From positions 1 through 23,611 of the IMG/VR virus record IMGVR_UViG_3300044613_003257: a DNA stretch of 23,611 bases; one strand, written 5' to 3'. Positions 1,531 to 23,611 of this stretch are shown piece by piece (positions within the stretch are counted from its first letter, which is position 1; every line of letters starts with the position of its first letter). The stretch is from a virus. A program made the position numbers and the translations under genes. The notes below the pieces were generated by a model that saw only the letters and a list, made by a program, of their open reading frames with translations, was not told the DNA's origin and ran no database searches.

Positions 1531-1584
1531 AAAAAATCGAACAGGTCGCATCAGCCGACCTGCGGCGGCTGTGCTTGGCTGTTC
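1531..1584 (-). terminator. Hairpin element copy A, terminator-like, early/late boundary
   Basis: Read on the minus strand, GAACAG (1584-1579) pairs with CTGTTC (1544-1539) and CAGCCG (1571-1566) pairs with CGGCTG (1557-1552). GA and six T (1536-1531) follow, the form of an intrinsic terminator. An alternative 7-bp hairpin, CAGGTCG/CGACCTG (1542-1562), overlaps the first, so two exclusive folds are possible. The methyltransferase stop codon lies within the element, and the next gene starts at 1520. A related copy is at 5060-5108. Terminator or attenuator function is inferred from the structure. Confidence 0.55.
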
Positions 1585-2150
1585 GCAAGCCTGATAACCC
1601 GGCCTGCCAGTTGGGAATTTTCCAGAGCAAGAGTATTCGCTTCATCGTAGGAGATCAGAGCGGACGGCGCTCCTGAGTTGGCGGAGGCGCGCGTTCCGTC
1701 CACGTGGTAGAAGTAAAGCCGCCCCCACAGAAACAAGATCGAGTGCGCCCGCTTCCAGACGTGCTCCACCCAGTCTTGCGTTTCCGTCCTCGCGAAGATC
1801 AGCGCCGTCGCGTTCCCGTGGTCCGCGCATCGCGCCAGCCACTTCCCCGTCTCGCGACCGTAAGGAGGATTACACCAGACGCGCCCGCTCCACTCTTTGC
1901 GGAGTCCATTGTCAAGGACCGTGAAGTGATTCGCAGCAGTAGGCCACGGGCGATTGATTGGGCTGCACGGGTCGAGATCGAACGGGCCGAGAGCGGCGAA
2001 GATTTCCGGCGGGGTCAACCATTCGTCCTTGCCCGCGCTGGCGCTATGGTGGCCGCCCATACCAACGGCTTGCGAACAAAGCACGGATGACAATCCATGC
2101 CCGTTGGGAGTTGCTAGGGAGGTGGCGTCAGGCGCGGGCATGGATGTCAT
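1551..2150 (-). CDS. Phage DNA N-6-adenine methyltransferase (Dam type)
   Basis: 199 residues. It is expected to methylate adenine in phage DNA using S-adenosylmethionine, commonly for protection against host restriction. Seen: DEWLTPPEIF at 42-51, FDLDPCS at 57-63, and the catalytic NPPY motif of amino-methyltransferases at 94-97 (VWCNPPYG), followed by TALIFARTET and FLWGRLYFY. This order matches the phage Dam family PF05869. No partner restriction endonuclease is seen nearby. I chose the ATG at 2150 because it forms an ATGA overlap with the stop of the upstream 79-codon gene; the frame is open further upstream to 2264. The C-terminus (NSQAQPPQ) is encoded by hairpin copy A and resembles the end of RusA. 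Confidence 0.88.
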   Translation of the reverse strand: MTSMPAPDATSLATPNGHGLSSVLCSQAVGMGGHHSASAGKDEWLTPPEIFAALGPFDLDPCSPINRPWPTAANHFTVLDNGLRKEWSGRVWCNPPYGRETGKWLARCADHGNATALIFARTETQDWVEHVWKRAHSILFLWGRLYFYHVDGTRASANSGAPSALISYDEANTLALENSQLAGRVIRLANSQAQPPQVG

Positions 2151-2386
2151 CGTTCGGCGTTCTCGGGACAAAATCGCTCGTTTCGACGAAGAAATTCGAG
2201 GACTCGCGGCCATGTCGGACCATCGTCCATCATATTTAGGCAGAGCACATTTAGCAGGTGCCATGCCTCTGCCAGCTCGCGCTCTAGTTGTCTTGATAGC
2301 TCGGAGCGAACTACCATTGGGTTATCCCTTTCGGGCCATGTCATAACGGGAAATTCTGCATTATCCGTTCTCGGCGTCTCACTCAT
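2147..2386 (-). CDS. Small phage protein with TPRTD...LERELAEA pattern
   Basis: 79 residues, unknown function. The N-terminal SETPRTDNA followed by RQLERELAEAWHLL is a pattern I recognise from small uncharacterised proteins in many phage early regions. There the segment is predicted helical and the rest is poorly conserved. The start ATG at 2386 is well supported by a strong AAAGGAGG ribosome-binding site 7 bases upstream. It forms an ATGA overlap with the 31-codon ORF before it and an ATGA overlap with the methyltransferase after it. No catalytic motif is visible. Confidence 0.72.
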   Translation of the reverse strand: MSETPRTDNAEFPVMTWPERDNPMVVRSELSRQLERELAEAWHLLNVLCLNMMDDGPTWPRVLEFLRRNERFCPENAER

Positions 2387-2478: not shown

Positions 2479-2779
2479 TGCTACTCCTTCCACTGCGGTA
2501 AGGGGCTTGTCCGGCGTGTTCGTCATGGTCGCCGTATGCCTCGACCGCGCCTTCTGACCACATCGCCAGTTTTGCGGCCATCTGCGAGAATCGGGTTTCG
2601 AGATTGGACAGGATTTCCAGCGCGTCCGATCCGCACATTTGTCCGCCGCCGAGGTTTCCGCTCTCCGTATCGTTCACGGCCTCTCGCAGCAGGCACATCG
2701 CGCTTCCGATGTCCTCAATGGTTTCGGCCAATTCGCGGCGCACTTCACGCGGCGGAGCGCTGGCAATTACATCACTCAT
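2471..2779 (-). CDS. Unknown phage protein, 102 residues
   Basis: Not recognised. It is a mostly acidic helical protein: REVRRELAETIEDIGSAMCLLREAVND, a glycine-rich linker, then ALEILSNLETRFSQMAAKLAMW, which could form a helical hairpin, and a hydrophilic C-terminus. ATG at 2779 is preceded by AAAGGAGG and forms an ATGA overlap with the helicase-loader stop. The gene is bracketed by the 60-bp direct repeat, so it looks like a cassette added to the replication operon. Confidence 0.65.
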   Translation of the reverse strand: MSDVIASAPPREVRRELAETIEDIGSAMCLLREAVNDTESGNLGGGQMCGSDALEILSNLETRFSQMAAKLAMWSEGAVEAYGDHDEHAGQAPYRSGRSSNE

Positions 2780-2831
2780 TGCGCGCCTCCTTTCTTGATT
2801 TCCAGCAGCGTGGTGCGGTCCATCAGGCGGC
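2772..2831. repeat. 60-bp perfect direct repeat, copy 2
   Basis: This is the copy inside its original context, the 3' end of the helicase-loader gene plus the start of the next gene. It is identical over 60 bases to 2379-2438, and the flanks diverge immediately on both sides. Confidence 0.95.
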
Positions 2832-3546
2832 CGATGATGGGCTCGCGGTTGAGATCGCTCAGCACCAGCCCGAAGCCCTCCGGGTGCGCGTTGCTGGAAA
2901 ACAGCAGCGGCAGCCGGTGGTTTTTGCGGTGGTCCAGGATCTGGAAAAACTGGCTCTCAAAGGCGCTGGTCCATTCGTTTTTGCCCAGGTCATCGATCAC
3001 CAACACCCCGGCATGCAGGCACTCGGCCAGATGCTCGCGGGCGTTGGCGGCGATGGTGCGGTCCCGGCTGGAGCGGTCGTGGGCGGCCTCGAGCAGCCGG
3101 TTGGCGGTGGTCCAGGTCACCCGGTTGCCGCGCAGGATGGCCGCCTTGGCGGCCAGTGCCAGGCAGCGCGTCTTGCAGCGCCCGGCCGGGCCGATGAGCC
3201 CCAGCCAGAACGCGCTGGCCGTAGGCCGCCACGCATTCACCGCCCGCCACAGCGGCCGGTTGAAATCCGGGTGGTGCTCGTCGGTGAGCAGCAGATCGGG
3301 CGGCAGCAGGGCCGTTACCCGCGCCGCACGTTCCTCGGCCCGGGCCTGCCGCTTGGCCGCTTCCACCGCGACGTCGTTGGCCGCTTGACAGTCCGGGCAC
3401 AGCAGGCTCAGCGTGCGGCCGAAGTCATGCCCGGCGATCCAGATGCACTCGTATTGGATTTCCTGCTGGCAGTGCGCACACGGGCAGGTGGCGGTTTCCG
3501 GCTCATGCACCGGGGCGTCAAGGAGCTTGATGGCAGTCGTGTTCAT
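2776..3546 (-). CDS. DnaC/IstB-like AAA+ helicase loader with N-terminal zinc-finger-like domain
   Basis: 256 residues. It is expected to load a replicative helicase at the phage origin. Seen: a cysteine cluster CPCAHC at 21-26 with CPDC at 50-53 (zinc-ribbon-like), Walker A GPAGRCKT at 119-126, Walker B VLVIDD at 181-186, a sensor-1-like LLFSSNAHPEG at 214-224 and a conserved arginine segment GRLMDRTT at 239-246. The Walker A has Cys where the family normally has Gly (GxxGxGKT). I chose ATG 3546 because the protein aligns sensibly from there. The frame continues upstream to 3660 but would overlap the replication gene by 94 bases. It follows the initiator-like gene by 20 bases, as in lambda O-P type pairs. 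Confidence 0.85.
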   Translation of the reverse strand: MNTTAIKLLDAPVHEPETATCPCAHCQQEIQYECIWIAGHDFGRTLSLLCPDCQAANDVAVEAAKRQARAEERAARVTALLPPDLLLTDEHHPDFNRPLWRAVNAWRPTASAFWLGLIGPAGRCKTRCLALAAKAAILRGNRVTWTTANRLLEAAHDRSSRDRTIAANAREHLAECLHAGVLVIDDLGKNEWTSAFESQFFQILDHRKNHRLPLLFSSNAHPEGFGLVLSDLNREPIIGRLMDRTTLLEIKKGGAQ

Positions 3547-3566: not shown

Positions 3567-4379
3567 TCAAATGAGCGTATGGCTGGCCGGGCGGCGGCCG
3601 CCAAGGTCGAGCGTCTGCTGCGGCGCCCCGTTGCAGTGCGTGCCGGCGTTGCGCAGCCACGTTTGCGGATCGTCCTCCCAGCGCCGGTGCCGGAAGAACT
3701 GGGCGGCGCTGGGCACGTAGGCATTGAGGTGGGCACCCGGCAGCCGCGCGATGGCCGCGGCGATGGCCTGAGTGCCGCTGCGCACCGCATCCAGGTCTGC
3801 ACCCTTGCGCACATGCACCGCCAGCGCCTCGATGGCCTCGGCCACCTTCTCGCGCTTGGGGTATAGTGCCACCACATCCGGCAAATTGGTTTCCCCCTCA
3901 CCCCCTTCCTTGATATCTCTGTCTCTTTCTCTTTCTCTTACCCCATGGCATGGGGGATCGATGGGGGATCGATGGGGGATCATTTCAGATGGATTTTCCA
4001 CCAACTCTGGATAGGCTGTGGAGAATGCTTTCAGCATGGGGGATGGGAGCCCCATCGCATGCCGCACAGCAGCCACCAGCACCTTGTTTTTCGTTGATAG
4101 CTGGCCGCCTTTTCCGAATTGGTGGCGTAGGAAATGAGTCAGGAAATAGACGCCCCCGGAAAGCTTCTGGATGGAGGATGGAAGGGCCATCGATACCCCT
4201 TCTAAGGTTGATGGGGGCAAACCAGTCTCGAATGCGAACCGCTTGCTGCTCACCTTGACAAAACCGCACAAGTCACGCGCCGGATTAGTGATCAGCCAGA
4301 GCACGGCCAGCTTAATTTCCGGCGAGGTTTCCTCCAGCCGCTCGTCAGTCCAGAATGATGATTTGATAACTGCGTTCAT
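3567..4379 (-). CDS. Phage replication initiator-like protein (helix-turn-helix), carrying internal iterons
   Basis: 270 residues. The N-terminal 60 residues (KSSFWTDERLEETSPEIKLAVLWLITNP, then GFVKVSSKRFAFETGL) look like the winged-helix start of phage replisome-organiser proteins. The middle is charged and low-complexity (RERERDRDIKEGGEGE). The C-terminal part has a helical segment with NAYVPSAAQFFRHRRWEDDPQTW, an ending common in phage replication proteins. The central coding sequence contains three tandem iterons and a pyrimidine-rich tract, as lambda O contains its own origin. The neighbour downstream is the DnaC-like loader. I chose ATG 4379; a TTG at 4400 is possible, and neither has a clear Shine-Dalgarno. 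Function is inferred from position and architecture. Confidence 0.68.
   Translation of the reverse strand: MNAVIKSSFWTDERLEETSPEIKLAVLWLITNPARDLCGFVKVSSKRFAFETGLPPSTLEGVSMALPSSIQKLSGGVYFLTHFLRHQFGKGGQLSTKNKVLVAAVRHAMGLPSPMLKAFSTAYPELVENPSEMIPHRSPIDPPCHGVRERERDRDIKEGGEGETNLPDVVALYPKREKVAEAIEALAVHVRKGADLDAVRSGTQAIAAAIARLPGAHLNAYVPSAAQFFRHRRWEDDPQTWLRNAGTHCNGAPQQTLDLGGRRPASHTLI
3901..4045. other. Candidate replication origin with three 11-bp iterons
   Basis: The 11-bp unit ATGGGGGATCG is present at 3950-3960 and 3961-3971, with ATGGGGGATCA at 3972-3982. Copies are contiguous, so each is about one helical turn from the next. A diverged copy (ATGGGGGATG) lies at 4036-4045. The first unit is preceded by a perfect palindrome CCCCATG-G-CATGGGG (3941-3955) and a pyrimidine tract with CTCTTT repeats (3915-3939). 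All lie inside the replication-protein gene. Origin function is inferred by analogy with lambda O. Confidence 0.6.
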
Positions 4380-4411
4380 GTTGATTTTAAAAATTTGCAA
4401 TCAGTCTTGCT

Positions 4412-11300: not shown

Positions 11301-13631
11301 TCATGGCTCGGTGGCGATGATTTGCACGACCCCCGAAGGAAATTTCGCGCAAAACTCCATTTTGGATGATCCGTTGAGGCGCATAAAAATGATGCCGTGT
11401 TCGGCTGCTACCTCGCCATCAGTTGGATCAGCCCCGGTGGATCGTTTCATCCTGATTCTGAGCGGCCACGAGGACGATTGCGTGATCTTCCCGGTTATAG
11501 TCGATCCACTGGAAACCGCGAATGACATCCAAGTTACAGTGGTCGCCTCGGGAAACCATTTTAGTTCGCCGTCTTGTCCGGCGATGGTGCCGGAAAATGA
11601 GCAATGCAGACTGTTAGCCGGAACAAAAGATGATGTGCTACCGAGCTGTATGGAGTTAAATGCGTTACCCCCCGGCAGGTAAATCCCACCTTGATGCTCA
11701 TTGTTTTGTAATCCTTGGCCAATCCAGATTTTACTATTTGTAGTGTTGTTTTGCCGCATGATGGCGCGGCGGGAAATTCGCACTATGCTGCCACCGTTGC
11801 GCCCGATTGCAGCCTCTACGATTTGCTCGATGAGATAATTCCGCATCTGGTATCCTGCGGTTGTCATATGGACATCTACGCCTCCCACTAGATATCCATC
11901 AGCAACGCCCGCAGCCCAACTGTGGAACATGCGTTTTGTCGAGATGTAGGATTCGTTATTACGAGCCGCCCATGCGTCCATCGTCGCGTCCTGATCGCCG
12001 TAAGTAGTGTAGTAGGAATCCGTTTGCGGAGGTGGGCCAATGAGCAGGAAATCACAAGTGCTGTGTCCGGCTTTGATTTTATCGTAAAGCGTGTCATATG
12101 TGCCGCCCTCATCCCATCCGGCAGGTGTGTCGAGCCATGATCCCATGACAATATCGGGAAGCAACCCAGCAACCACGCCGGACACGGTAGCGGCGGGACA
12201 GGTGGAAATGAATGCGTTATCAAGCCCGCCTTGGTCGCATCGGCTGATTACATATCCGCCGTAGTTTTCCAGCCAGAATCCGCAGCCTATGATTTTTGCA
12301 GTTGCGCCGCCGCCGCCCGATCCCGCCACCACGTTTGTGACTCGCACCTTGACGGTCTCAAGTGCGGCGTTGGTGATGGTGTAAGTCAGATAATTACCCC
12401 CTGCTGACGCAGAATATGTGCTGATCCCGGATGCAGCCACCGTCCAGCTCCCTGATCCGAGTTGATATTCCAAATCGAATGTCGCTCCGGTCGGGCCAGT
12501 AATAAAACCGACCCCTATCCGGTTTGCGCGGAAATCAATCGTGCCCGCTGTCGATGGCGCGTATAGGATTGTGGCTCCGATAGATACGTTGCGATACCTC
12601 CCTTGCAGCCATTCGTTACTCTCGACCACCACCGGAGCAGTGCCTGCCGTCACCGATGACCGTTGATCGAGTTTATAGCCGACCAAATCCTGTCCGGGCA
12701 AGGGGGACTCCTCGGCAATCCTGCTAGATACCGAATCTCCGAAAACCATGATGTTGATGGCGGTGGCAGGCACTCCAGAAGCTGCCGACTCTCGGGCAGC
12801 GAGCTTGATTCTGGTGTTTTTGAGCTGCACCTTTTTTACGATGTCAGCATCTATGATCTTCGCCGCCGCTCGCGTCGCCGCCGGATCGGTGGCGATGGCG
12901 GCGTTGACGGCGGTGTTGGTGACATCGGCCAAAACAGCACTGGCGGCCGCTGCGCTGGCACTGGCACTAGCAGCGCTGGCTGAATTGCTGGCACTGGCGG
13001 CGCTGGCACTGGCGGCACTGGCTGAACTGCTGGCGCTGCTGGCGCTGGCGCTGGCTGAACTGCTGGCGCTGCTGGCGCTGGCGGCACTGGCGCTGGCGGC
13101 GGACACGGCGGCCTGCGCGTCTCCCAGCACCTCGCTTGCAAGAGCCGCCTTGGACAATTCTTCCATGGCCCCAGTGTTGTTATTGAATGCCAGCAGTTTG
13201 CCTTTGCGCTGGGCGGGGGCTGACAAGGTGGTGGGGTTGCCGGCTGGTTCCGCGCCGGGGAAGGCGATGGTCGCGCGAGCGTCCAGATCGCGGATCATGC
13301 GCACCAGGGCGTCGAGCTGGGCCTCGATCTGGATGCTGGGCAGGCGCTCGTTGTAGGTGAGATCCAGAGCTTGCGCGATGGCGGTTTTGCGCAAAAAGGT
13401 AACGGTGCTGCCGGCTGGGGGTGCTGTCTGGAACACAATGGTGGCAGTGCCACCCAAATTGGAAAACGTGTAATCGACTCCCGCGACTTGGGCGGTCACT
13501 GCGCCTGCGGCCGTGGTGATCCATACGCCGATTTCACTGGCCCCCCCGGCTACGAGCAGCGTGGCAAAGGTGGTGTTGCTGCCATTGCCTGCGGCTTGGT
13601 ATTTGACATTTTCGTTGGTTCCTACAGCCAT
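11301..13631 (-). CDS. Tail fibre with T7-fibre-like N-terminus, Ala/Ser stalk and SGNH hydrolase domain
   Basis: 776 residues. Residues 1-120 (NENVKYQAAGNGSNTTFATLL through ALDLTYNERLPSIQIEAQLDALVRMIRDLDA) resemble the virion-attachment domain of T7-type fibres. About 170-230 is an Ala/Ser repeat, probably a trimeric stalk. An SGNH/GDSL hydrolase follows: block I FGDSVSS with S300 as nucleophile, and DVHMTTAGY with D586 and H588. About 150 residues of beta-rich sequence sit between block I and the later blocks. The C-terminal 150 residues are beta-rich and may bind receptor. It probably deacylates host surface polysaccharide during attachment. I chose ATG 13631; a TTG at 13667, 16 bases after the previous gene with GGGGGAAA before it, is an alternative. 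Confidence 0.82.
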   Translation of the reverse strand: MAVGTNENVKYQAAGNGSNTTFATLLVAGGASEIGVWITTAAGAVTAQVAGVDYTFSNLGGTATIVFQTAPPAGSTVTFLRKTAIAQALDLTYNERLPSIQIEAQLDALVRMIRDLDARATIAFPGAEPAGNPTTLSAPAQRKGKLLAFNNNTGAMEELSKAALASEVLGDAQAAVSAASASAASASSASSSASASASSASSSASAASASAASASNSASAASASASAAAASAVLADVTNTAVNAAIATDPAATRAAAKIIDADIVKKVQLKNTRIKLAARESAASGVPATAINIMVFGDSVSSRIAEESPLPGQDLVGYKLDQRSSVTAGTAPVVVESNEWLQGRYRNVSIGATILYAPSTAGTIDFRANRIGVGFITGPTGATFDLEYQLGSGSWTVAASGISTYSASAGGNYLTYTITNAALETVKVRVTNVVAGSGGGGATAKIIGCGFWLENYGGYVISRCDQGGLDNAFISTCPAATVSGVVAGLLPDIVMGSWLDTPAGWDEGGTYDTLYDKIKAGHSTCDFLLIGPPPQTDSYYTTYGDQDATMDAWAARNNESYISTKRMFHSWAAGVADGYLVGGVDVHMTTAGYQMRNYLIEQIVEAAIGRNGGSIVRISRRAIMRQNNTTNSKIWIGQGLQNNEHQGGIYLPGGNAFNSIQLGSTSSFVPANSLHCSFSGTIAGQDGELKWFPEATTVTWMSFAVSSGSTITGKITQSSSWPLRIRMKRSTGADPTDGEVAAEHGIIFMRLNGSSKMEFCAKFPSGVVQIIATEP
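12935..13115 (-). repeat. Ala/Ser codon repeat in the tail-fibre stalk
   Basis: GCTGGCACTGGCG-type units recur on the plus strand. On the coding strand they give runs of SAS, SSAS and SAASAS. The repeat is degenerate at the third codon base, which indicates selection on the protein and not recent slippage. Confidence 0.85.
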
Positions 13632-13996: not shown

Positions 13997-16900
13997 TCAG
14001 TCTTCGGTGGTGTTTTTGTAAATGGCCTCAAGATCGCGCGCAATGTGGCTCCACGACGCGGCGGCGGCTGCGGTGGGGCTGGCCACGCCCACGCCCATCA
14101 AAATGCTTTCCGCGTCCTTGATGGCGTCTTCCCAAGATCCCTTGCCGGTGGCGAGCTTGCGGATGGTGCCCGCGGCCTTGGACGGGCCGGAAATGAGGGT
14201 GCTGCCAGGCATGTATTCGCCCGCGCCGGCATAAATCATGTTTTCGATTTCCTTGCCGACGATGGGCAAGCCACCGATGGGGCCGGAGAGCGCCATGAGC
14301 GCCAGCCGCGTGGGATCCCAGTTTGTTTCATCGAACACCTCATCGTCCTCGCCATCGTCGCGCAGATCGCGCACGGCGGCGCGCACCACCGCGGCGAGCA
14401 GGCCGGAAACCGTCCAGGTAATGGCCGCGGCGCGGAAGCGCTCGAGGCCGGTCTTCTGCATCAGGCCGTAGGCACTGAGGGCGATTTTCTGGCGCGGTTC
14501 GGACGCGAAGGCCCACATCATGCGGAATGCCGGATTGGTGGCTGTGACCTCGATGAGCGAGCGGGCCCCGGCGCGCATGGGCTGGGCCACCTGGTCGGTG
14601 AGGAGAATGGTTACCTCTTGGGCCCACTGCTCGGGACTGGGCATGCCGCGGTCCTTGGCCAGCTTGAGCTGGTAATCGTAGATGATGGCGTAGGTGCCGG
14701 CGGTGAAGAGCGCGTCGGCGCCGGATATCAGGCTGCCGAGGCGGGCGGTTTCGTGCTTGAGGCGGCTGGGCGGGCCGCTGGCCAGTCCCTGCATGGCCTG
14801 CTGCACGGCGGGCGGCATCTGAGCCAGGCGGCGCTGGATGTAGTCGGAGCGGATCGCCTTGCCCCAGCCGAGCTGGCCGGTGGTGAGTTTTGCCAGGCGC
14901 GTAAGGTAGCTGCCCACCGGCATCTGGTAGGTGGCGGCGCCGAGCTGCACGCTCTGGATGGCCAGCACGCTCACGCGGCCGACGAGCGCCATTTGGGAAA
15001 TCCGGTCCAGCCCGCGCTGGAACCAGCCGGAAACGGCCAGGTGCGCCGCGGCATCGCGGGTGCCACCCTGGGCGAAGTAGTCGGTCCATGCGCGCAGGAT
15101 GTTGAGCGCTTCCTTGCCGGCCTTGGCCTCGATGCTGTTCCCCAGCTCGCGGTTGTTGACAATGGCCATCAGCTCGCTGGACAGCTGGCCGTAGGCGATA
15201 AAGTGCTCCATCTGCTTCACGTGGGCCACGTAATGCTGCAGCGCGTCCATGCGCTGCGGCTCGGCCACGGCGGAATGGCTGCGGTTCTTGAGGCTGCCGG
15301 GCGTAAGCCCCGGGCCCTGCATGGTGCCGGATACCGGATCTGCCATCTGGCCGCCGGGGGCGTGCTGCGGTGCCACCGCGATGGGGCTGTAGTCCTTGTG
15401 GCGCGGCATGTTCACTCCGTAGAGGTCGGAAAACACCGCGTTGATGCGGTCATACTCGGCGCCGTAGTTCTCGCGCAGATGCAGGCGGATGGCCTTGGCC
15501 TCCTTGGAAAGCTGGCGCTCGATGGCCGCCACGTCCTCTTCGCGCCAGTGCCAGTCCGAGGTCACGGTGGTGGAGCCGTCGGCGTTTTCCTCAATCTGCC
15601 CTTCCATGTGGCGCCGCCCATCGGCCTGGGCCCACCACAGCGTGTAGGATACCGCCTCCATTTCGGTGGCAGTCTGCTTGCGGCCTTGCCAGTCAATCCA
15701 CTCCACCCGGCGCTCGGTGGCCAGCTTGTAGCGGAGTTTTTCGCCGGCCAGCGGATTGCCGGCCAGATCGTTGAGCAGCGCCTCCACGGCATTGTGCGTG
15801 CGCTGGATGGCATTCTCCTTGGCATTGGCGGCGCGCAGTTCCCACTCGGCAAACGAGCGGGCGGTGGCGCTGCCTTCGCCAAACACCAGCCCGAGCATCT
15901 GATCGAAGCTGAAGATAGAGAGCAGTGCCTCGCGGGTGCGGCCCAGCTTGGTGCCGCGGGCCTTGATCTCCGCATTCACCCGCTCCATGCGCTCCCCGGC
16001 CCGGCCGGTGTCGTGTTTGAGATCCGCGCGGCGGCGGGTGATGCGCTCGCGCTTTTGGGCGGCTTTGATTTGGGCCTGCAGGTAGCCACCGGCATAGGCG
16101 CTGGTCGCCTCCGCCAAGGCCATTTCCCGCCGGGCGGCATCCGCCTTGCGCCAGTCGCCCACCAAGCGCACCAGATTGGCCTCCAAGGTCAGGTGGGCGG
16201 CCTGCTCTGCGGTGGTGGCCTCGGCCTCGGCCAGGCTTTCCAGGCGGGTGGCCTCGGCCTCGGTTTCCGCGGCGTCCAGGAACATGGCATCCTCGATGGA
16301 CCGAAACAAGTCATGCACGTTGGCGCCGATCTTGCCCTTGGGCCGCTTGCCCGCCTCATCGCGCTCGGGGCGCGTGCGCTCGAGCAGTTCGCGGAATTCG
16401 CGGTCGAGCGTCTCGCGCATCCATTTTTCCAGCTCGCGGTCGCTTTTGGCGATGGTGTCTTTGAGAATTGCCAGCCGCGCCTCCTCACTGCCAGCCCGGG
16501 CAATGTCCATGATCCCGCCGATTTTGGCCCGCACCGGCGGCGGCAGCGCGCGCAGGATCGCCTGCATCGATGCCAGGGCGCGCAGGATTTCCTGCTTGGG
16601 CGAGTAGTTGGCCGCCTGCCCCTCGCCAGCCTGCCGCAGCCAGTCATTGGCCTCCTGCTTGGCGGTGGTGCGCGCGGCGCGCAGCTGCTGCTGCACTTGG
16701 GCCAGTTGCTCTTTCATGCCGGCCACTTGCGCCTGCTCGCTGTGAAGCGCCTGCCAGAGGGTGTCCACATCGGGGCTGTTGATGAGCCCCTCGTCGTAGA
16801 GCTCTTGGGCCGCCTGGTCGGGCGTGAGAGTGCCGCCAAAGATCGAGCGGGAAAGCCCGTCGCTGCCGTCCCACTCGCCGCCCTTGTAGTCCTCGCCAAA

Positions 16901-19900
16901 CAACTCCGCGCGGTGCTTCATGGCCGCGCTGCGGCTCATCAGGCGGCCGCGCAGCGGGCTGTCAGGATCGGCCAGCGCGGCGTGCACCGGCTGGCTCTTG
17001 ATGCGCACCAGATCCTCGTTGCTCAATAGCTCCCAGTGCCGCGCATACACGTCGTTTTCCAGCTCCTCGCGCCGCACCGCTTCGCGCATGGCCGCCTCCT
17101 TGAGCAGGCTCTTGCGCATGCGCTTGCTGCCGGCCACCAGCTCGAAGCGCTCGGCATCCAGCTTGAGCCGCTCAAACTCGCGGGAAATGCGCTGGAATAT
17201 CTCCGCCCGGCGACGCGGGTTGCGCACCCGGTCGAGCGCATTCATGCGCATCAGGTCGAGGCTGCGCGATGGGGCCAAAGATGCCGCCCCGGAATCCGCC
17301 GGGGGGGACTGGTTAAAAGGATGAGCGATCAAATCAGGCTTTGGACTAACTCCACCATATAGCCAAGGGGCTGACTTTGAAGCATTGGAAAAAAAGAATT
17401 TTTCACTCAGCTTGCGCGGGCGGTCTTCCCATTCACCGAGTTTTTTGACCAGCGTTTCATAAGTCGTAAGTGATCCGATTGGCCTGGCCGTTGCCGCGTC
17501 CAGCACAGGTTCCCCATCGGTGCCAGTCGTGATTCTTTCCCCTTTTACCAGGTATGCGTATTTTGCAGGAAACTCGAAATATCTGGAAACGCTGATACCA
17601 CCTTCATTCGGGTCCGTTTCTGTGTCGAAATCATTCAATCCATGATTTTTGCTTCCATGGTGAATTCCTTCCTTCAAATATTTGAAATCATCCTTTGAAT
17701 TTGTCACCCTGATATAAGTGTCTGGACCTAGCTTTTCGCGGCCGATCACTTCTTGGAAAAGTCGGAATAAATGATTTTCAATTCTTTGCGGCCAGCGGTG
17801 AGAACTTTCCGATATTACAGCGACCATTCCGTCCCCGTGCCTGAATGCATGCTCTTTCACTCCATAATCTTCAACAATAGCGATGGCATATTCCCCATTT
17901 GCTTGTAGCGGAATTACTTCCTTGATTCGTTGGTGCAGCTTGCTTTCCGGCAGGGCCGCGTCACCGATGTTGGCCCCGCCGGGCTGGTTGGGATTGATGC
18001 CGCCAAGTTGCCCGGCCGCCCCGGGCCTGCCAAGCGAAAAGCTTTGCAGACTCATGCCGGCAAATATGCTTGCCTCGTCGGACTTGGAAAGTATGCGACC
18101 AGATCCGCCTTTTTTCGCCTCATCGCCGATCCGTTCATACAAGGTGCCTGCGCGGATTCGCTCGTAAGTGATGCGCGCGGCGTCTTCGTAGTCGGCTGGA
18201 GCGGAATTTTTGGTGGAAGATCCCAGCATCTTGAACAAATCCTTCTCATTGTACCACAGCGCGGCCTGCATGTCCGCTATGGTAATGTCGATGCCGGCAC
18301 GCTTGAGCATCTTCTGGGCCTTCTCCATCACAGCCTGCTGAAAATCACGCTCGAGGTCGGTGCGCGGTGCCTCAAGCACGTTCTCGCGGTTTTCTACCCA
18401 GTTTTTTGCGGCCCGGCGCAAGTCGCTTTTCTGTTTGTATTGACCCTTGCGAAATACCTCTTCAAGACGCGAGGCAAGTGCCAGCATCTGCTCGGGATCA
18501 TTGATCAGACTGTCAAATTCCTCGGGCGTCATCTCCTTGAGTTCATCGCCATTCTCCCATAGTACTGGCTGGCCTTTCTCGAATTTTTTGGGTCCAGTAT
18601 CTTTGGTGAATTCCGCCACTGCCGCATCGCGCATTGCCAGATATTGCGTGGCTTCTAGTTCTGGAGAATGCACGAATGACCATCCTAAAATGCGGTTCCA
18701 TGTCCGGCTGAACCAAAGGTCGGCCGTCAGGGTGGTATAATCGCCGTGCAAATTGTTGATAAACGAGCCAATCTTGGGCCCAAAGACCATCCAGCCTGTC
18801 ACTTTTTGGGTCGATTTGCCTTCAACAGAAAGCGGCTTCCCATTGAACCACAGTTTCTGATTCTTGCGCAAATGCGCGTTGATGTTGCCAACGGTATCTT
18901 TCTTATTGAGAAACTTACGAAGCTCCGCGTAAGTATTCTGGTCTAGCAGGGCCTGCAGCTTGGCAAAGTTGTTTTCGATTGCCACGGTCTTGCTACCGAA
19001 TGACTCGGACAGCGGAGCCACGGCTTCCAAAATGGTCATGCCTCCTTTTCTCCAGCGAGCATACACCCTTGTGGACATCACACTGTTGTCGGTGACCGGA
19101 TTGCCCTGCGATGCGATGCCAAGCATAGCGTCAAAAACAAGTGCTTTGTCGATATCGTATCCGGCACCTCCTTCCTCAAGTTCTGCAAACATCCGCGAGT
19201 AGATTGCCTTTGCCGCTTTGAGGGCACGGTCATACCACCCGATCGCAGACCTCAGTCCATGCTCCTTGGCATTGTTCACATGCCACTGCACCTCGTCGTA
19301 AATCGTTTGCGCGATGAGCTTCTTCGCTCTTTCGGAGTAGTCTCCTGGAGATATCAATCCATGCTTGGCTGACCAGTTTTGCAAGGCCCATACCACATTG
19401 GTGACAGAGGCCTTAAAGACTCCTTTCTTGGTGAACCGCCCTTGGACTTCGAGCTTTTCCTGCCCGGTCATTATCCTGGCCGCGCTCTTGAGACTCCCGT
19501 GTTTGGGGTAGAGTGCGTCCCTGACGATCTCCGCCTGAGTATCGTTCAGTCCGAATCGCTTGGCGAAGAGGTCGATGTTGAAGCGATAACCCTCTGATCC
19601 GACTGCTTTGGCATACGGGGCGACAAACGAATCGATGACTCGTTCCAGTAAGGCGAGTCCTTCGGCAGTGGTTTGAATCCATGCTTGGCCCGACCCTCCT
19701 CGAGGCTCTGGCGAGAAATCAGTTTCCGTTTCATTGAGGTCTGAAGATACGAGTTCACTGTAAGCATTCGGCAAGCCGACCGCCTGCTGGATGTCGCGGA
19801 TCGCTTGCTCGAAATCGTTTTTCCCCGCTTCGTCCCCAAAATATAAAAACTTTGCGGACTTACCGTCTGCGGTGGTGGCGAAATCAATGCCTCGCTTCTG

Positions 19901-22900
19901 CGACTCCGCGAAGATGGCATTTACCTGCTCCTTTGTCAATCTCTTGGGTTGTCCTAAAAAATATGCAGGGATGCCCTCGGTGAGGCTTTCGTTGGGTCTC
20001 CCCACGATGGTGGCGTCCTGCGCCCAGGCAAAGCCGAAAAGAGCCCCTATACCGGCGGCCTGCTCATCGCTGAGGCTCTTTGCGGTCAGCTCGAAGGAGG
20101 GCTCCAGATTGCCCAGCCAAGAACCGATCGTCGGCCGCACTTGAAGGCCTTCAACCCCAAACAAATCTTTTATCAGAGCTTTTGCCTTGGCCGCGTTAAG
20201 AATTTTGTTCGTCGCAGCGCCCACGCGCTCGAGACGCGGCTTACTCTGTGTGGGATGTGTGATCGGGCCGGGTGTCGTTCTGCTGGCAATTGAGCGCTGC
20301 TCTTCCTCGATCTCCCGGATACGCTCAGCATTCTCCTCGGGATTGTTCTGCAGTCCGGCCAGTTCTTTGCGCAAAGCGCGCTCTTGCTTTTCTGTCTGGG
20401 CAATGCCACCTGGCGTCCAGCCGTATTCCCCAGGCCGCGCGCCGATCGTCACCGTCGATCGGCCAAGCGAAAACGCCAGATCGGGCTGCAGATCCATATC
20501 CGGCAGCCGCGCAAAGCGTGCCTGGCCGGTGTCGTTGCGCAGGGCCAGCACGGTGCCGTCCGGGGCGATTGGCACGTAATGGTGCTGGTCAGCGCCGCTG
20601 TCGCGCTCGCTGGCATACCATTCCAGCTGAAAAATATCCACCAGCAGGTCCATGGTATCGACCGGATCGATGCCGCGGAAAAAGTCGCTGTTGAGCGTGT
20701 CGCGCAGCCAGTTCCAAAAGCCCGTTACGCTGGGGTCGGTGGGGTTGGCGCCGGGCTCGATGAGGGCGGGGCGGATCCAGTCTTCGGCCAGTCCCCGGCC
20801 TTCGTAGGCTTCCCATGCACCCAATACGGCGGCGTGTCTTCCGTCTTTGGAAAGTTGATTCCAAAATTCTCCTCCACCATCGGGTATTTGAGCGGGCGCT
20901 TGGTTTTGGCTGAGGTCGATTTCATGGCCGTCTGGATACAGCACCCCGGTGTGGCTGGTCAAACTTGGCACGGGGCCGAATTGTGACAAGCGGAATTCCG
21001 GGTAGCGCATGCCGCTGCGTGCAATGGAAAACGGTATATCATCCGCGTCCACGTCGTAGTCGGAATTCAAGGCCGCGGCGAAGGCCTCGGGCGAAAGCGG
21101 ATCGGCAATGCGGGCGGCCTCCTGGGCGGTTTGCCGGTTGAAATCGTCTTGCACGTCGAGCCCCAGCAGCTTGGCGAGAAAGGCGTCGTAGCTGTCGGCA
21201 TCGAATTTCCCCTCGCGCTCGGCTTTTTTGATTGCGAGGGCGCGGGCCATCGCTTGGCCAAAGTGGGCGCGCACGCTTTCGATGAAGGCGGAGAACTTGC
21301 GGGTGGCCTCCGGTGCCAGGCGGGCCAGTGCGGTGAGGTTGCGGGTGACAAAGCCGCTGGGGACATTGCCGGCACCGGGACGCTGCGGCATCCGGCGCTT
21401 GGTGCCGCCAGAGCGGCTGCGCAGGATTTCCATTTCCATTACCTCGGAAATCGCCTCGTCGATCATTTCTTCGGTGATCTGCTCGTCGGTGATGCCCTCG
21501 GGCAGGAAGGAAAGGCGCTCGCCCTCGCGGGTGCGCTTGCCGGCCAGCACAGCGTCAATCGCGCGGACGAATGAAACCTCCTCCTCGCGGCTCAGTTGGC
21601 CGGCTTCCCGCAGGGCCCGGCGCCGGCCGTGGGTGAATTCGTGAAAGACGGTCAGCACGCTGCCGCCTTGGAAAATTCGGTTCACGGTCTGCCGCAGGTT
21701 GTCGCGTATCTGGGACTCGCTCCAGCCGTTGACGGTGTAGGAAATTTCCCCGGTGCCGCCGGCCGCCTGTTCTTTCAGTTCGACTTGCTTGGCGAAGCGG
21801 GCGGCCATTTCCGGGCGCTCGGCCTCAAGCAGCGCGCGGTCCATCACGGTGCCCAGTTCAAGGCGCGTCTCCTGATTCGGATCGAGCTTCTGCACGAAAT
21901 CCGCGCTTTCGAGCAGGGATTTCATGTAGGCCACGGCATCGGCATCCAGATCGGCAAGGAAATCAGAATGCGCTTGGGCCATGGTCCACGCGGCGCCCAT
22001 GCTCGGGGCAGTGCCCACGGTTTCCTCAGTGCGGCCGTCCAGCACAGTGTATCCTTCGCGTCCCGCCACGATGATGGGCAGATCGCCGGACGCGCGCAGT
22101 TGGTTGGCAGCCTCACGGCGGGCGCGCTCCCTGACGGCCAGCTCCTCCGCCGCGGCCTTGGCCTCGGGGCTGTTGGCGTCGCGGTTTGGCCAGCTGTTAT
22201 TGATTTCGGTGTTGGCGCTGTCGTATCCTGGCGCGTTTTTAATCCGGTCGATCGCCTCGGGCTGCAGCCCCAGCGCGCGCAGCTCCAGCTCGCTGGCCTC
22301 GCGGAACGCATTGGCGCGGGCCTCTGCATTGATGCCGCCTGCCGCCCCAAACATAGACAGCAGCACCATCGTGCCGGCGTATTCGGGATAATTCGCCCAA
22401 GCCCCCTTGAATTCCTGCACCAAGTCCACATCGGGCAGTGCTGGGTTCAATGCCGCGGCAATGTCATGCACAATGGATTCCGTGAAATCCTCGCCCACCT
22501 CGAGGGTGGCTTCCACCCCAGTGATGGCACCGGTGCGGGCAGCGAAGCGCAGCCCGCGGTTCACAATCTTGTCGCCTATCTGATTGAGCGCCTTGTTGGC
22601 CCAAGGGATTTTGCGCGCCCATATTCCGAACTGGATTTTATTGAGCACAAATTGCGGCACCATCACGAATGGTGCCACCGTGTTGGCGGCCGTCATTGCG
22701 TCTGCCTCGGTAAGCCCGTGATCGCGGAATTTCAAATACGCGCTTTCCCTCGCGCTGCCGTGCAGCATGGCAGCCATTGCCACCTGCCCCACCACCGGCA
22801 CAAAAAACGTCATGCTGGTTGCCGTCACCCCCGGGGTTTTCTGCAATATCCCCTGCCCCTGGTAATCGATCGGATCGTAGTCCGAGCGCAGGATCCGCCG

Positions 22901-23611
22901 GATTTCCATGGCCCGCCCTTCCTGCCGGTTCATGTCTGCCGCGTCCGCTTGCCTTTGCTGTTCCATGCCGCGCATCGTGCCGGCATTCACGCCCAGCGGC
23001 CCGCCGGTGCCCAGTGGAGTGCCCGCCATCACTCGGCCGCCCACGCTTTCGCCAATGTTGCGGCTGTAGTCTTCCATCACGCGCAGCAAATCCTTGCGCA
23101 TCCCGGCCAGAAACCGCTCTTGCTCTGCATCGGGCAGGGTAGTGACCCGCAGCCGCAGCGACTCCAAAAATTCCCCAAACAATTCATCCGGCACCTGCCC
23201 GATCAGTTCCAATGGCAAATTGGCACCGTTCACCGCGGCCAGCCAGGTAGCCTCCAGCGCCTCGCCAATCGGCTCCTGGCGCTCTGCAAGCTGCCGCCGC
23301 ACTTCGGTAAAACTTTCGGCATAGTCACCCACCCGCTCCATATCAAATCCCGGGTGCTGCATCGCCGTCTTGAGCCAATCCCCAAAAGTCCCGGCATGCT
23401 CACTTGGCATGGCCGAGGCCCGCGCCGCGTGAGTCACCAGCCCCCCAATCAGCTCCCGCTCATCCACGCGGAATTGCGCCGCGGCTTGCCCTTGCTGGAA
23501 AAATGCCTCTTCGCTCTCCGCGCCCTGCCCCTTGAATTCCTCCTCGGCCACCCGCAGCCGCAGCAGGTAGCGGCCCAGCTCATCGGCCGGCGGATCCTCG
23601 CCTTGGTTGTA
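13997..23611 (-). CDS. Giant polyvalent-type phage protein, at least 3204 residues (N-terminus beyond window)
   Basis: One uninterrupted frame of 9.6 kb. A GTG at 23551 (residue 1 here) could start it, but 20 further codons to the window edge are open and read as plausible protein (DELGRYLLRLRVAEEEF), so it is treated as partial. Seen: hydrophobic segments near 247-264, 290-310 and 395-413; a zincin-like HEFTH at 637-641; FSIARS, FSLGRS and FSLGRP linkers near 840, 1026 and 1836; a GPKIGSFINNLHGD segment near 1585-1600; an AT-rich patch near 1880-2070 with HHGS (about 1963) and GISVSRYF; Glu/Ala/Arg coiled coils about 2270-2480; and a C-terminal 330 residues (QMALVGRVSVLAIQSVQLG and following) typical of large polyvalent phage proteins. 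Such proteins are thought to be packaged and injected with the DNA. Exact enzymatic roles are inference. Confidence 0.82.
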   Translation of the reverse strand, partial: YNQGEDPPADELGRYLLRLRVAEEEFKGQGAESEEAFFQQGQAAAQFRVDERELIGGLVTHAARASAMPSEHAGTFGDWLKTAMQHPGFDMERVGDYAESFTEVRRQLAERQEPIGEALEATWLAAVNGANLPLELIGQVPDELFGEFLESLRLRVTTLPDAEQERFLAGMRKDLLRVMEDYSRNIGESVGGRVMAGTPLGTGGPLGVNAGTMRGMEQQRQADAADMNRQEGRAMEIRRILRSDYDPIDYQGQGILQKTPGVTATSMTFFVPVVGQVAMAAMLHGSARESAYLKFRDHGLTEADAMTAANTVAPFVMVPQFVLNKIQFGIWARKIPWANKALNQIGDKIVNRGLRFAARTGAITGVEATLEVGEDFTESIVHDIAAALNPALPDVDLVQEFKGAWANYPEYAGTMVLLSMFGAAGGINAEARANAFREASELELRALGLQPEAIDRIKNAPGYDSANTEINNSWPNRDANSPEAKAAAEELAVRERARREAANQLRASGDLPIIVAGREGYTVLDGRTEETVGTAPSMGAAWTMAQAHSDFLADLDADAVAYMKSLLESADFVQKLDPNQETRLELGTVMDRALLEAERPEMAARFAKQVELKEQAAGGTGEISYTVNGWSESQIRDNLRQTVNRIFQGGSVLTVFHEFTHGRRRALREAGQLSREEEVSFVRAIDAVLAGKRTREGERLSFLPEGITDEQITEEMIDEAISEVMEMEILRSRSGGTKRRMPQRPGAGNVPSGFVTRNLTALARLAPEATRKFSAFIESVRAHFGQAMARALAIKKAEREGKFDADSYDAFLAKLLGLDVQDDFNRQTAQEAARIADPLSPEAFAAALNSDYDVDADDIPFSIARSGMRYPEFRLSQFGPVPSLTSHTGVLYPDGHEIDLSQNQAPAQIPDGGGEFWNQLSKDGRHAAVLGAWEAYEGRGLAEDWIRPALIEPGANPTDPSVTGFWNWLRDTLNSDFFRGIDPVDTMDLLVDIFQLEWYASERDSGADQHHYVPIAPDGTVLALRNDTGQARFARLPDMDLQPDLAFSLGRSTVTIGARPGEYGWTPGGIAQTEKQERALRKELAGLQNNPEENAERIREIEEEQRSIASRTTPGPITHPTQSKPRLERVGAATNKILNAAKAKALIKDLFGVEGLQVRPTIGSWLGNLEPSFELTAKSLSDEQAAGIGALFGFAWAQDATIVGRPNESLTEGIPAYFLGQPKRLTKEQVNAIFAESQKRGIDFATTADGKSAKFLYFGDEAGKNDFEQAIRDIQQAVGLPNAYSELVSSDLNETETDFSPEPRGGSGQAWIQTTAEGLALLERVIDSFVAPYAKAVGSEGYRFNIDLFAKRFGLNDTQAEIVRDALYPKHGSLKSAARIMTGQEKLEVQGRFTKKGVFKASVTNVVWALQNWSAKHGLISPGDYSERAKKLIAQTIYDEVQWHVNNAKEHGLRSAIGWYDRALKAAKAIYSRMFAELEEGGAGYDIDKALVFDAMLGIASQGNPVTDNSVMSTRVYARWRKGGMTILEAVAPLSESFGSKTVAIENNFAKLQALLDQNTYAELRKFLNKKDTVGNINAHLRKNQKLWFNGKPLSVEGKSTQKVTGWMVFGPKIGSFINNLHGDYTTLTADLWFSRTWNRILGWSFVHSPELEATQYLAMRDAAVAEFTKDTGPKKFEKGQPVLWENGDELKEMTPEEFDSLINDPEQMLALASRLEEVFRKGQYKQKSDLRRAAKNWVENRENVLEAPRTDLERDFQQAVMEKAQKMLKRAGIDITIADMQAALWYNEKDLFKMLGSSTKNSAPADYEDAARITYERIRAGTLYERIGDEAKKGGSGRILSKSDEASIFAGMSLQSFSLGRPGAAGQLGGINPNQPGGANIGDAALPESKLHQRIKEVIPLQANGEYAIAIVEDYGVKEHAFRHGDGMVAVISESSHRWPQRIENHLFRLFQEVIGREKLGPDTYIRVTNSKDDFKYLKEGIHHGSKNHGLNDFDTETDPNEGGISVSRYFEFPAKYAYLVKGERITTGTDGEPVLDAATARPIGSLTTYETLVKKLGEWEDRPRKLSEKFFFSNASKSAPWLYGGVSPKPDLIAHPFNQSPPADSGAASLAPSRSLDLMRMNALDRVRNPRRRAEIFQRISREFERLKLDAERFELVAGSKRMRKSLLKEAAMREAVRREELENDVYARHWELLSNEDLVRIKSQPVHAALADPDSPLRGRLMSRSAAMKHRAELFGEDYKGGEWDGSDGLSRSIFGGTLTPDQAAQELYDEGLINSPDVDTLWQALHSEQAQVAGMKEQLAQVQQQLRAARTTAKQEANDWLRQAGEGQAANYSPKQEILRALASMQAILRALPPPVRAKIGGIMDIARAGSEEARLAILKDTIAKSDRELEKWMRETLDREFRELLERTRPERDEAGKRPKGKIGANVHDLFRSIEDAMFLDAAETEAEATRLESLAEAEATTAEQAAHLTLEANLVRLVGDWRKADAARREMALAEATSAYAGGYLQAQIKAAQKRERITRRRADLKHDTGRAGERMERVNAEIKARGTKLGRTREALLSIFSFDQMLGLVFGEGSATARSFAEWELRAANAKENAIQRTHNAVEALLNDLAGNPLAGEKLRYKLATERRVEWIDWQGRKQTATEMEAVSYTLWWAQADGRRHMEGQIEENADGSTTVTSDWHWREEDVAAIERQLSKEAKAIRLHLRENYGAEYDRINAVFSDLYGVNMPRHKDYSPIAVAPQHAPGGQMADPVSGTMQGPGLTPGSLKNRSHSAVAEPQRMDALQHYVAHVKQMEHFIAYGQLSSELMAIVNNRELGNSIEAKAGKEALNILRAWTDYFAQGGTRDAAAHLAVSGWFQRGLDRISQMALVGRVSVLAIQSVQLGAATYQMPVGSYLTRLAKLTTGQLGWGKAIRSDYIQRRLAQMPPAVQQAMQGLASGPPSRLKHETARLGSLISGADALFTAGTYAIIYDYQLKLAKDRGMPSPEQWAQEVTILLTDQVAQPMRAGARSLIEVTATNPAFRMMWAFASEPRQKIALSAYGLMQKTGLERFRAAAITWTVSGLLAAVVRAAVRDLRDDGEDDEVFDETNWDPTRLALMALSGPIGGLPIVGKEIENMIYAGAGEYMPGSTLISGPSKAAGTIRKLATGKGSWEDAIKDAESILMGVGVASPTAAAAASWSHIARDLEAIYKNTTED

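Follow-up and report, generated by a model that had tools for sequence, protein, structure and literature searches.

The analysed window is the whole of the viral contig IMGVR_UViG_3300044613_003257 (23,611 nt; 23.6 kb), which encodes a tyrosine integrase. A gene for a replisome-organizer-like initiator occupies positions 3567–4379 of the minus strand (270 aa, with an ATG start at 4379 and a possible TTG start at 4400). It is adjoined by a gene for a DnaC-like helicase loader (2776–3546, minus strand; phrog_50, E = 4.7e-17; Pfam IstB_IS21, E = 4.6e-11), an adjacency that belongs to the layout of the lambda ori; the loader shares 52% identity with its counterpart in the related phage L003. Near these replication genes lies a gene for a Dam-type N6-adenine methyltransferase (1551–2264, minus strand). 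Most of the distal part of the contig is taken up by a minus-strand ORF of 3184 aa (13997–23551; 3204 aa where the same frame is followed, still open, to the contig end), which probably specifies a virion or injected protein of very large size. The 23.6-kb window is rich in tandem repeats with periods from 6 to 42; one of 42 bp (12948–13100, 3.6 copies) encodes an Ala/Ser-rich stretch in a 788-aa minus-strand ORF.

By its profile matches the initiator is assigned to a DnaD-like family (PHROG 1701) and not to the lambda O family. The N-terminus matches phrog_1701 ('DnaD-like helicase loader', E = 1.7e-8) and phrog_6251 ('replisome organizer DnaA-like', E = 6e-7), and residues 141–239 match phrog_270 ('replication initiation protein', E = 2e-4). 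All 27 aligned members of the family match PHROG 1701. Searched against Pfam with a cut-off of E = 1, the window initiator matches no family, and hence not the lambda O family (Pfam Phage_rep_O); the lambda O model is likewise listed for none of the 27 family members scanned, some of which match O-like PHROGs. A sequence search against solved structures returned no homologue, only low-complexity or weak matches, and the DNA-binding fold of the N-terminus is a prediction from the PHROG matches only. The C-terminal parts vary across the family, some matching DnaT, Phg_2220_C or O-like models, which suggests that the N-terminal domain with its embedded origin acts as a module with different downstream partners.

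Within the initiator coding sequence several repeats of one sequence are found, again as in the lambda ori layout. The preliminary description had reported three contiguous head-to-tail 11-bp iterons at 3950–3982, and repeat detection and TRF bear this out: two copies of ATGGGGGATCG (3950–3960 and 3961–3971) are followed by ATGGGGGATCA (3972–3982), with the core exact and all three on the plus strand (TRF: 2.9 copies, 100% match, score 64). The fourth copy, which it had placed at 4036 in the same low-complexity linker, is present with an exact core ATGGGGGAT (4036–4044, plus strand; the 11-mer at 4036–4046 reads ATGGGGGATGG), but sits upstream of the linker, near codons 112–115, and no counterpart of it is seen in the sequences of the relatives L003, L005 and L007. 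This pseudo-palindromic 9-mer core is identical in all four copies and absent from the rest of the 23.6-kb window on both strands. The longest perfect periodic run reaches 21 matches at lag 11. When the gene was shuffled 1000 times among synonymous codons, keeping the protein and codon usage, the mean was 7.8 and the maximum 14, and none of the shuffles contains an array like the observed one. The four core copies compare with a mean of 0.30 and a maximum of 3 in 3000 synonymous shuffles. Single 11-mer matches with 2 mismatches are uninformative as evidence, 9 being seen where 10.4 are expected. GC skew has no minimum at the array, which in a fragment of 23.6 kb speaks neither for nor against an origin; the skew minimum of L272 (at 3998) is near its initiator and is confounded by transcription. 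The iterons contain GATC (GGGGATCG), which, if methylated, could matter for origin control.

The palindrome previously noted at 3941 and the pyrimidine tract beside the iterons are both present. The palindrome, CCCCATGGCATGGGG, spans 3941–3955 with 7-bp arms around a 1-nt centre; it overlaps iteron 1, joins it to the tract, and is the counterpart of a perfect hairpin, CCCCTTCCGATTTTTCGGAAGGGG, common to L003 and L005. The junction GGGGTAAGAG (3935–3944, minus strand) is identical in all four close relatives. It leads into a purine tract, TAAGAGAAAGAGAAAGAGACAGAGATATCAAGG (3908–3940, minus strand), which reads TAAGAGAAAGAGAAAGAGACAGAG on the strand of the gene, forms the pyrimidine tract of the plus strand, and repeats with a 6-bp period (62% match at lag 6). 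We regard it as a candidate unwinding element. Of all 30-bp stretches in the 23.6 kb only five are less stable than 3910–3939, which is also a stability minimum inside the gene, so that a helically unstable tract adjoins the iterons, as it does in lambda. The tract stands out by its purines more than by its A+T content, which counts against reading it as the melting part of an origin.

A second site, absent from the preliminary description, is found in the N-terminal coding region. Site A, as we call it to distinguish it from the linker array (site B), is a degenerate iteron pair, AAGGGGTAT-CG-ATGGCCCTT, at 4182–4202 on the minus strand (codons 60–66), and its place is kept in relatives as roughly AAGGGGCTTNNAAGGSSCTT. 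Comparison of four phages reveals constraint on the DNA beyond that on the protein, a further trait of the lambda ori layout: codons 60–66 have 25 of 27 same-codon pairs against 9.8 expected, and codons 145–151 (3927–3947, at site B and the tract) have 27 of 27 against 9.0. Nowhere else in the gene is codon-level constraint as strong. The inner letters of site A are shifted in the window in the same way as the core of site B, and the residues encoded there, V62, S63 and M64, occur in the window only, the other three phages having A, C and K. A parallel shift of both sites at the cost of these residues is one case and suggestive only.

Protein searches yielded a near-identical phage (L002) and three diverged initiators (L003, L005 and L007; 53–57% identity over a 27-sequence alignment). 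The preliminary description had made its reading depend on the presence of iterons in close relatives with the same initiator, and related elements are found in all three of these, as direct repeats in L003 and L005 and as inverted ones in L007. The junction GGGGTAAGAG and the linker purine tract are likewise present in 3/3. L005 carries three units of the ATCCCCCATAG type and L003 two AAGCCCCTT units, both at 11-bp spacing; in L007 the CCCCTT copies at site B are inverted, and a tandem AAGGGGCTTGCAAGGGGCTT occupies codons 60–66, the place of site A. The place and, in direct arrays, the period are constant among the relatives while the letters change. The core differs even between phages with closely similar initiators, the window and L005 standing against L003 and L007. 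A search for residues that determine iteron specificity gave only S7/A and T31/S as positions that split the users of ATGGGGGAT from those of AAGGGGCTT, and four relatives are too few for such a comparison.

More distant initiators also carry the repeat that two of the close relatives have, AAGGGGCTT at 11-bp spacing. When viral contigs were scanned for the L003 repeat at this spacing, at least 120 matches were obtained, and among the matches listed a rough motif filter picked approximately 101 loci in which a candidate ORF of initiator type surrounds the repeat; we do not use this count as evidence, because four of the loci failed the N-terminal motifs and at least one of these (L050) looks like an unrelated frame. 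To avoid selection on the repeat, homologues were gathered by protein, which resulted in 56 loci from bacterial genomes (the RDY set) and 80 viral loci (KRF); the RDY seeds were taken from repeat carriers, while the scan itself relied on protein patterns. A first scan of genome contigs with the alignment of the close family gave no match, no plasmid homologues were found, and at megablast sensitivity no E. coli genomes with the region of phage Fraca were seen. The RDY hosts include Citrobacter, Proteus, Acinetobacter, Burkholderia, Janthinobacterium, Stenotrophomonas, Bradyrhizobium, Gemmata and others, and thus span Proteobacteria and Planctomycetes. Exact AAGGGGCTT on either strand is found at site B of 47/54 RDY prophage genes (synonymous shuffles: mean 2.8, maximum 9) and of 77/77 KRF viral genes (mean 3.8, maximum 13), and pairs of it spaced by 11 bp occur in 32 RDY genes against 0.08 expected and in 50 KRF genes against 0.02. 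The RDY figure is the better one, because the KRF set has many near-identical sequences. The site A of the window is matched by a site A in the distant RDY family, where most of the highest z-scores of codon bias fall at codons 62–68 and 148–156 of the reference, and in the prophage relatives the two sites are about 255 bp apart. The complete phages B1251, Fraca and LMessi have no exact core outside the initiator gene, bar one just upstream of it in B1251.

Downstream of site B the 6-bp period of the tract is also retained: the match at lag 6 is 0.58 in RDY and 0.66 in KRF genes, as opposed to 0.27–0.29 elsewhere in the genes. The dipeptides encoded by the tract are diverse, including (QE)n in RDY, (KD/MD)n in KRF, (RE)n in the window and (SN)n in L049, besides others. 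The tract consists mostly of 5'-NAR-3' triplets in RDY and SFW genes, in Tenacibaculum phage JQ and in phage D6E, and the register of these triplets relative to the codon phase is 0 in RDY, 1 in the window and 2 in L049; the triplet rule does not hold for KRF tracts, periodic though they are. Three RDY-type loci (L185, L190 and L191, the latter two alphaproteobacterial) have CTAGAG, AATAAC and CACTGT, respectively, in place of CAGGAA. We take the periodic tract to be a candidate melting tract under selection as DNA; that a protein reads it in triplets is a guess. The same layout is spelled in other letters in two further phages. In the thermophilic phage D6E (L277), which has a distantly related initiator, ACGATACGT repeats at 12-bp spacing are followed by (AAAAAG)n around 1600–1700 of the locus. 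In Pseudanabaena phage Pan5 (L275), ATGGGGCAT, ATCCCCCAT and ATGGGGGTA units at 11-bp spacing, of the ATGGGG/ATCCCCCAT type, precede an AAAGAT tract at 1300–1450. The Pan5 initiator is KRF-type and carries the window-type core ATCCCCCAT, which may represent an independent shift of iteron specificity.

Tandem repeats could arise by slippage in a linker that tolerates them, and have no function. The low complexity of the linker and the abundance of repeats of period 6 to 42 in the window would agree with such an origin of the array, but a period of 11 is not a multiple of 3, and the same period recurs at the same place with different letters in L003 and L005. Moreover, site A is situated in the conserved N-terminal region, and both sites are under codon-level constraint and are not reproduced by the shuffles. 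Together, the shuffle comparison and the codon-pair test refute slippage at the sequence level, and we give it next to no weight. It is about equally improbable that the repeats are recognized by a host protein, such as a nucleoid or chromosome-handling factor, instead of the phage initiator. A core AAGGGGCTT common to phages of many hosts could be explained in this way; however, these hosts range from Proteobacteria to Planctomycetes, the cores of complete phage genomes cluster in the initiator gene, and the core varies among phages with closely similar initiators.

Somewhat less improbable, though still very unlikely as the main role of the repeats, is autoregulation of the initiator, either through a DNA operator or through mRNA structure formed by a hairpin or by pairing of sites A and B. 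Plasmid iterons also serve in autoregulation, in many relatives the two sites have opposite orientations, so that the mRNA could pair, and L003 and L005 have the perfect hairpin. Against this, 11 of the 47 RDY genes have site B oriented as direct copies of site A (35 are inverted and 1 has both), where pairing is impossible, and this rules out RNA pairing of the two sites as a general rule. The occurrence of both orientations agrees with recognition of a near-symmetric core by a protein and speaks against mRNA pairing. In addition, the sites lie inside the gene and not at a promoter, and the 11-bp spacing with an adjoining weak tract is a feature of origins. The sites may still have a regulatory role of a secondary kind.

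The reading that we prefer is that the array and its neighbouring elements constitute the replication origin of the phage, embedded in its own initiator gene and working like the lambda ori, and we consider this highly probable. It draws on the sequence elements themselves, the DNA-level constraint at two sites, the period, place and order conserved in distant initiators, and the clustering of cores in the initiator gene. In such an origin the N-terminal domain of the initiator would bind the 11-bp iterons on one face of the helix, recognizing the pseudo-palindromic core ATGGGGGAT in the window and AAGGGGCTT in most relatives; binding would take place at site B in the linker, helped by site A in the N-terminal coding region. 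The nucleoprotein complex would strain the DNA, and the adjoining weakly paired purine tract with its 6-bp period would melt. The C-terminal part of the initiator and the DnaC-like loader could then put the host helicase on the opened strand.

We propose only tentatively, as a possibility we would rather doubt than assert, that these loci represent a widespread and apparently undescribed class of origins. Such origins would combine DnaD-like initiators with two intragenic clusters of 11-bp iterons, whose core is AAGGGGCTT or a variant of it, ATGGGGGAT for example. A 6-bp-phased tract would complete them, under selection as DNA through a stepwise reading of the opened strand, 3 or 6 nt at a time, by the initiator or loader; this reading in steps is the speculative part of the proposal. 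No description of the AAGGGGCTT iteron class or its layout was found in open-access text. What began as a single array in an uncultured phage becomes an origin signature, with AAGGGGCTT-type iterons of 11 bp at two places of the initiator gene and a 6-bp-periodic tract, by which the probable origin can be located from sequence in metagenomic viruses and in many phages and prophages, the latter two mostly of Proteobacteria. The isolated E. coli phages LMessi and Fraca carry the signature and can serve as test cases. The locus also presents one stretch of DNA under the double constraint of a protein code and a probable binding site, and the natural iteron variants of its relatives are material for studying shifts of specificity.

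Elements of this arrangement are known from other systems. DnaA-trios have the sequence 3'-(G/A)AT-5', or 3'-(G/A)A(T/N)-5' in the looser form used for comparison here, with a polarity that reads away from the boxes. The 5'-NAR-3' triplets of the window family read away from the iterons with the opposite polarity, and KRF breaks the triplet rule, so the tract is not a DnaA-trio. The likeness lies in the triplet-phased A-containing repeats beside predicted binding sites, as DnaA-trios are such repeats beside double-strand binding sites (PMC10797057). In the origins of Gram-negative PICIs iterons flank a presumed melting site (PMC6092414); these differ in lying 3' of the initiator gene, in having two sets of iterons around an AT-rich region, and in their protein. 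SPP1 gp38, TP901-1 Rep and PLE RepA are comparable through the annotation of the window N-terminus as DnaD-like or replisome organizer by PHROG. All three have DnaD/RepA_N-like N-domains to which the window protein can be compared. The PLE iterons lie in a non-coding region and differ in sequence and spacing from those of the window. RepA_N proteins bind semi-palindromic iterons (PMC7145576). RepA_N homology of the window initiator was not detected with Pfam; initiators of the RepA_N/DnaD type are plausible fold relatives of it.

As in the lambda ori within O and its equivalents in lambdoid Stx phages, the iterons of the window and its putative melting tract lie midway in the initiator gene, with the helicase-loader gene next to it. 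Lambda iteron units measure about 18–20 bp, whereas those of the window are 11 bp long, are built on a 9-bp core and follow one another with hardly any spacer. The window further differs from lambda in having iterons at a second site, inside the N-terminal coding region, in its 6-bp-periodic, purine-rich tract, and in an initiator that falls outside the lambda O family of Pfam. Iterons number 4 in lambda and 6 in Stx phages, flanked by an AT-rich region (PMC7466680). 'Lambda-O-like origin', the name given in the preliminary description, therefore does not suit the protein, which has no Pfam match and a PHROG 1701 N-terminus, but in terms of sequence it does suit the arrangement of iterons and putative melting tract in the linker with the loader encoded next.
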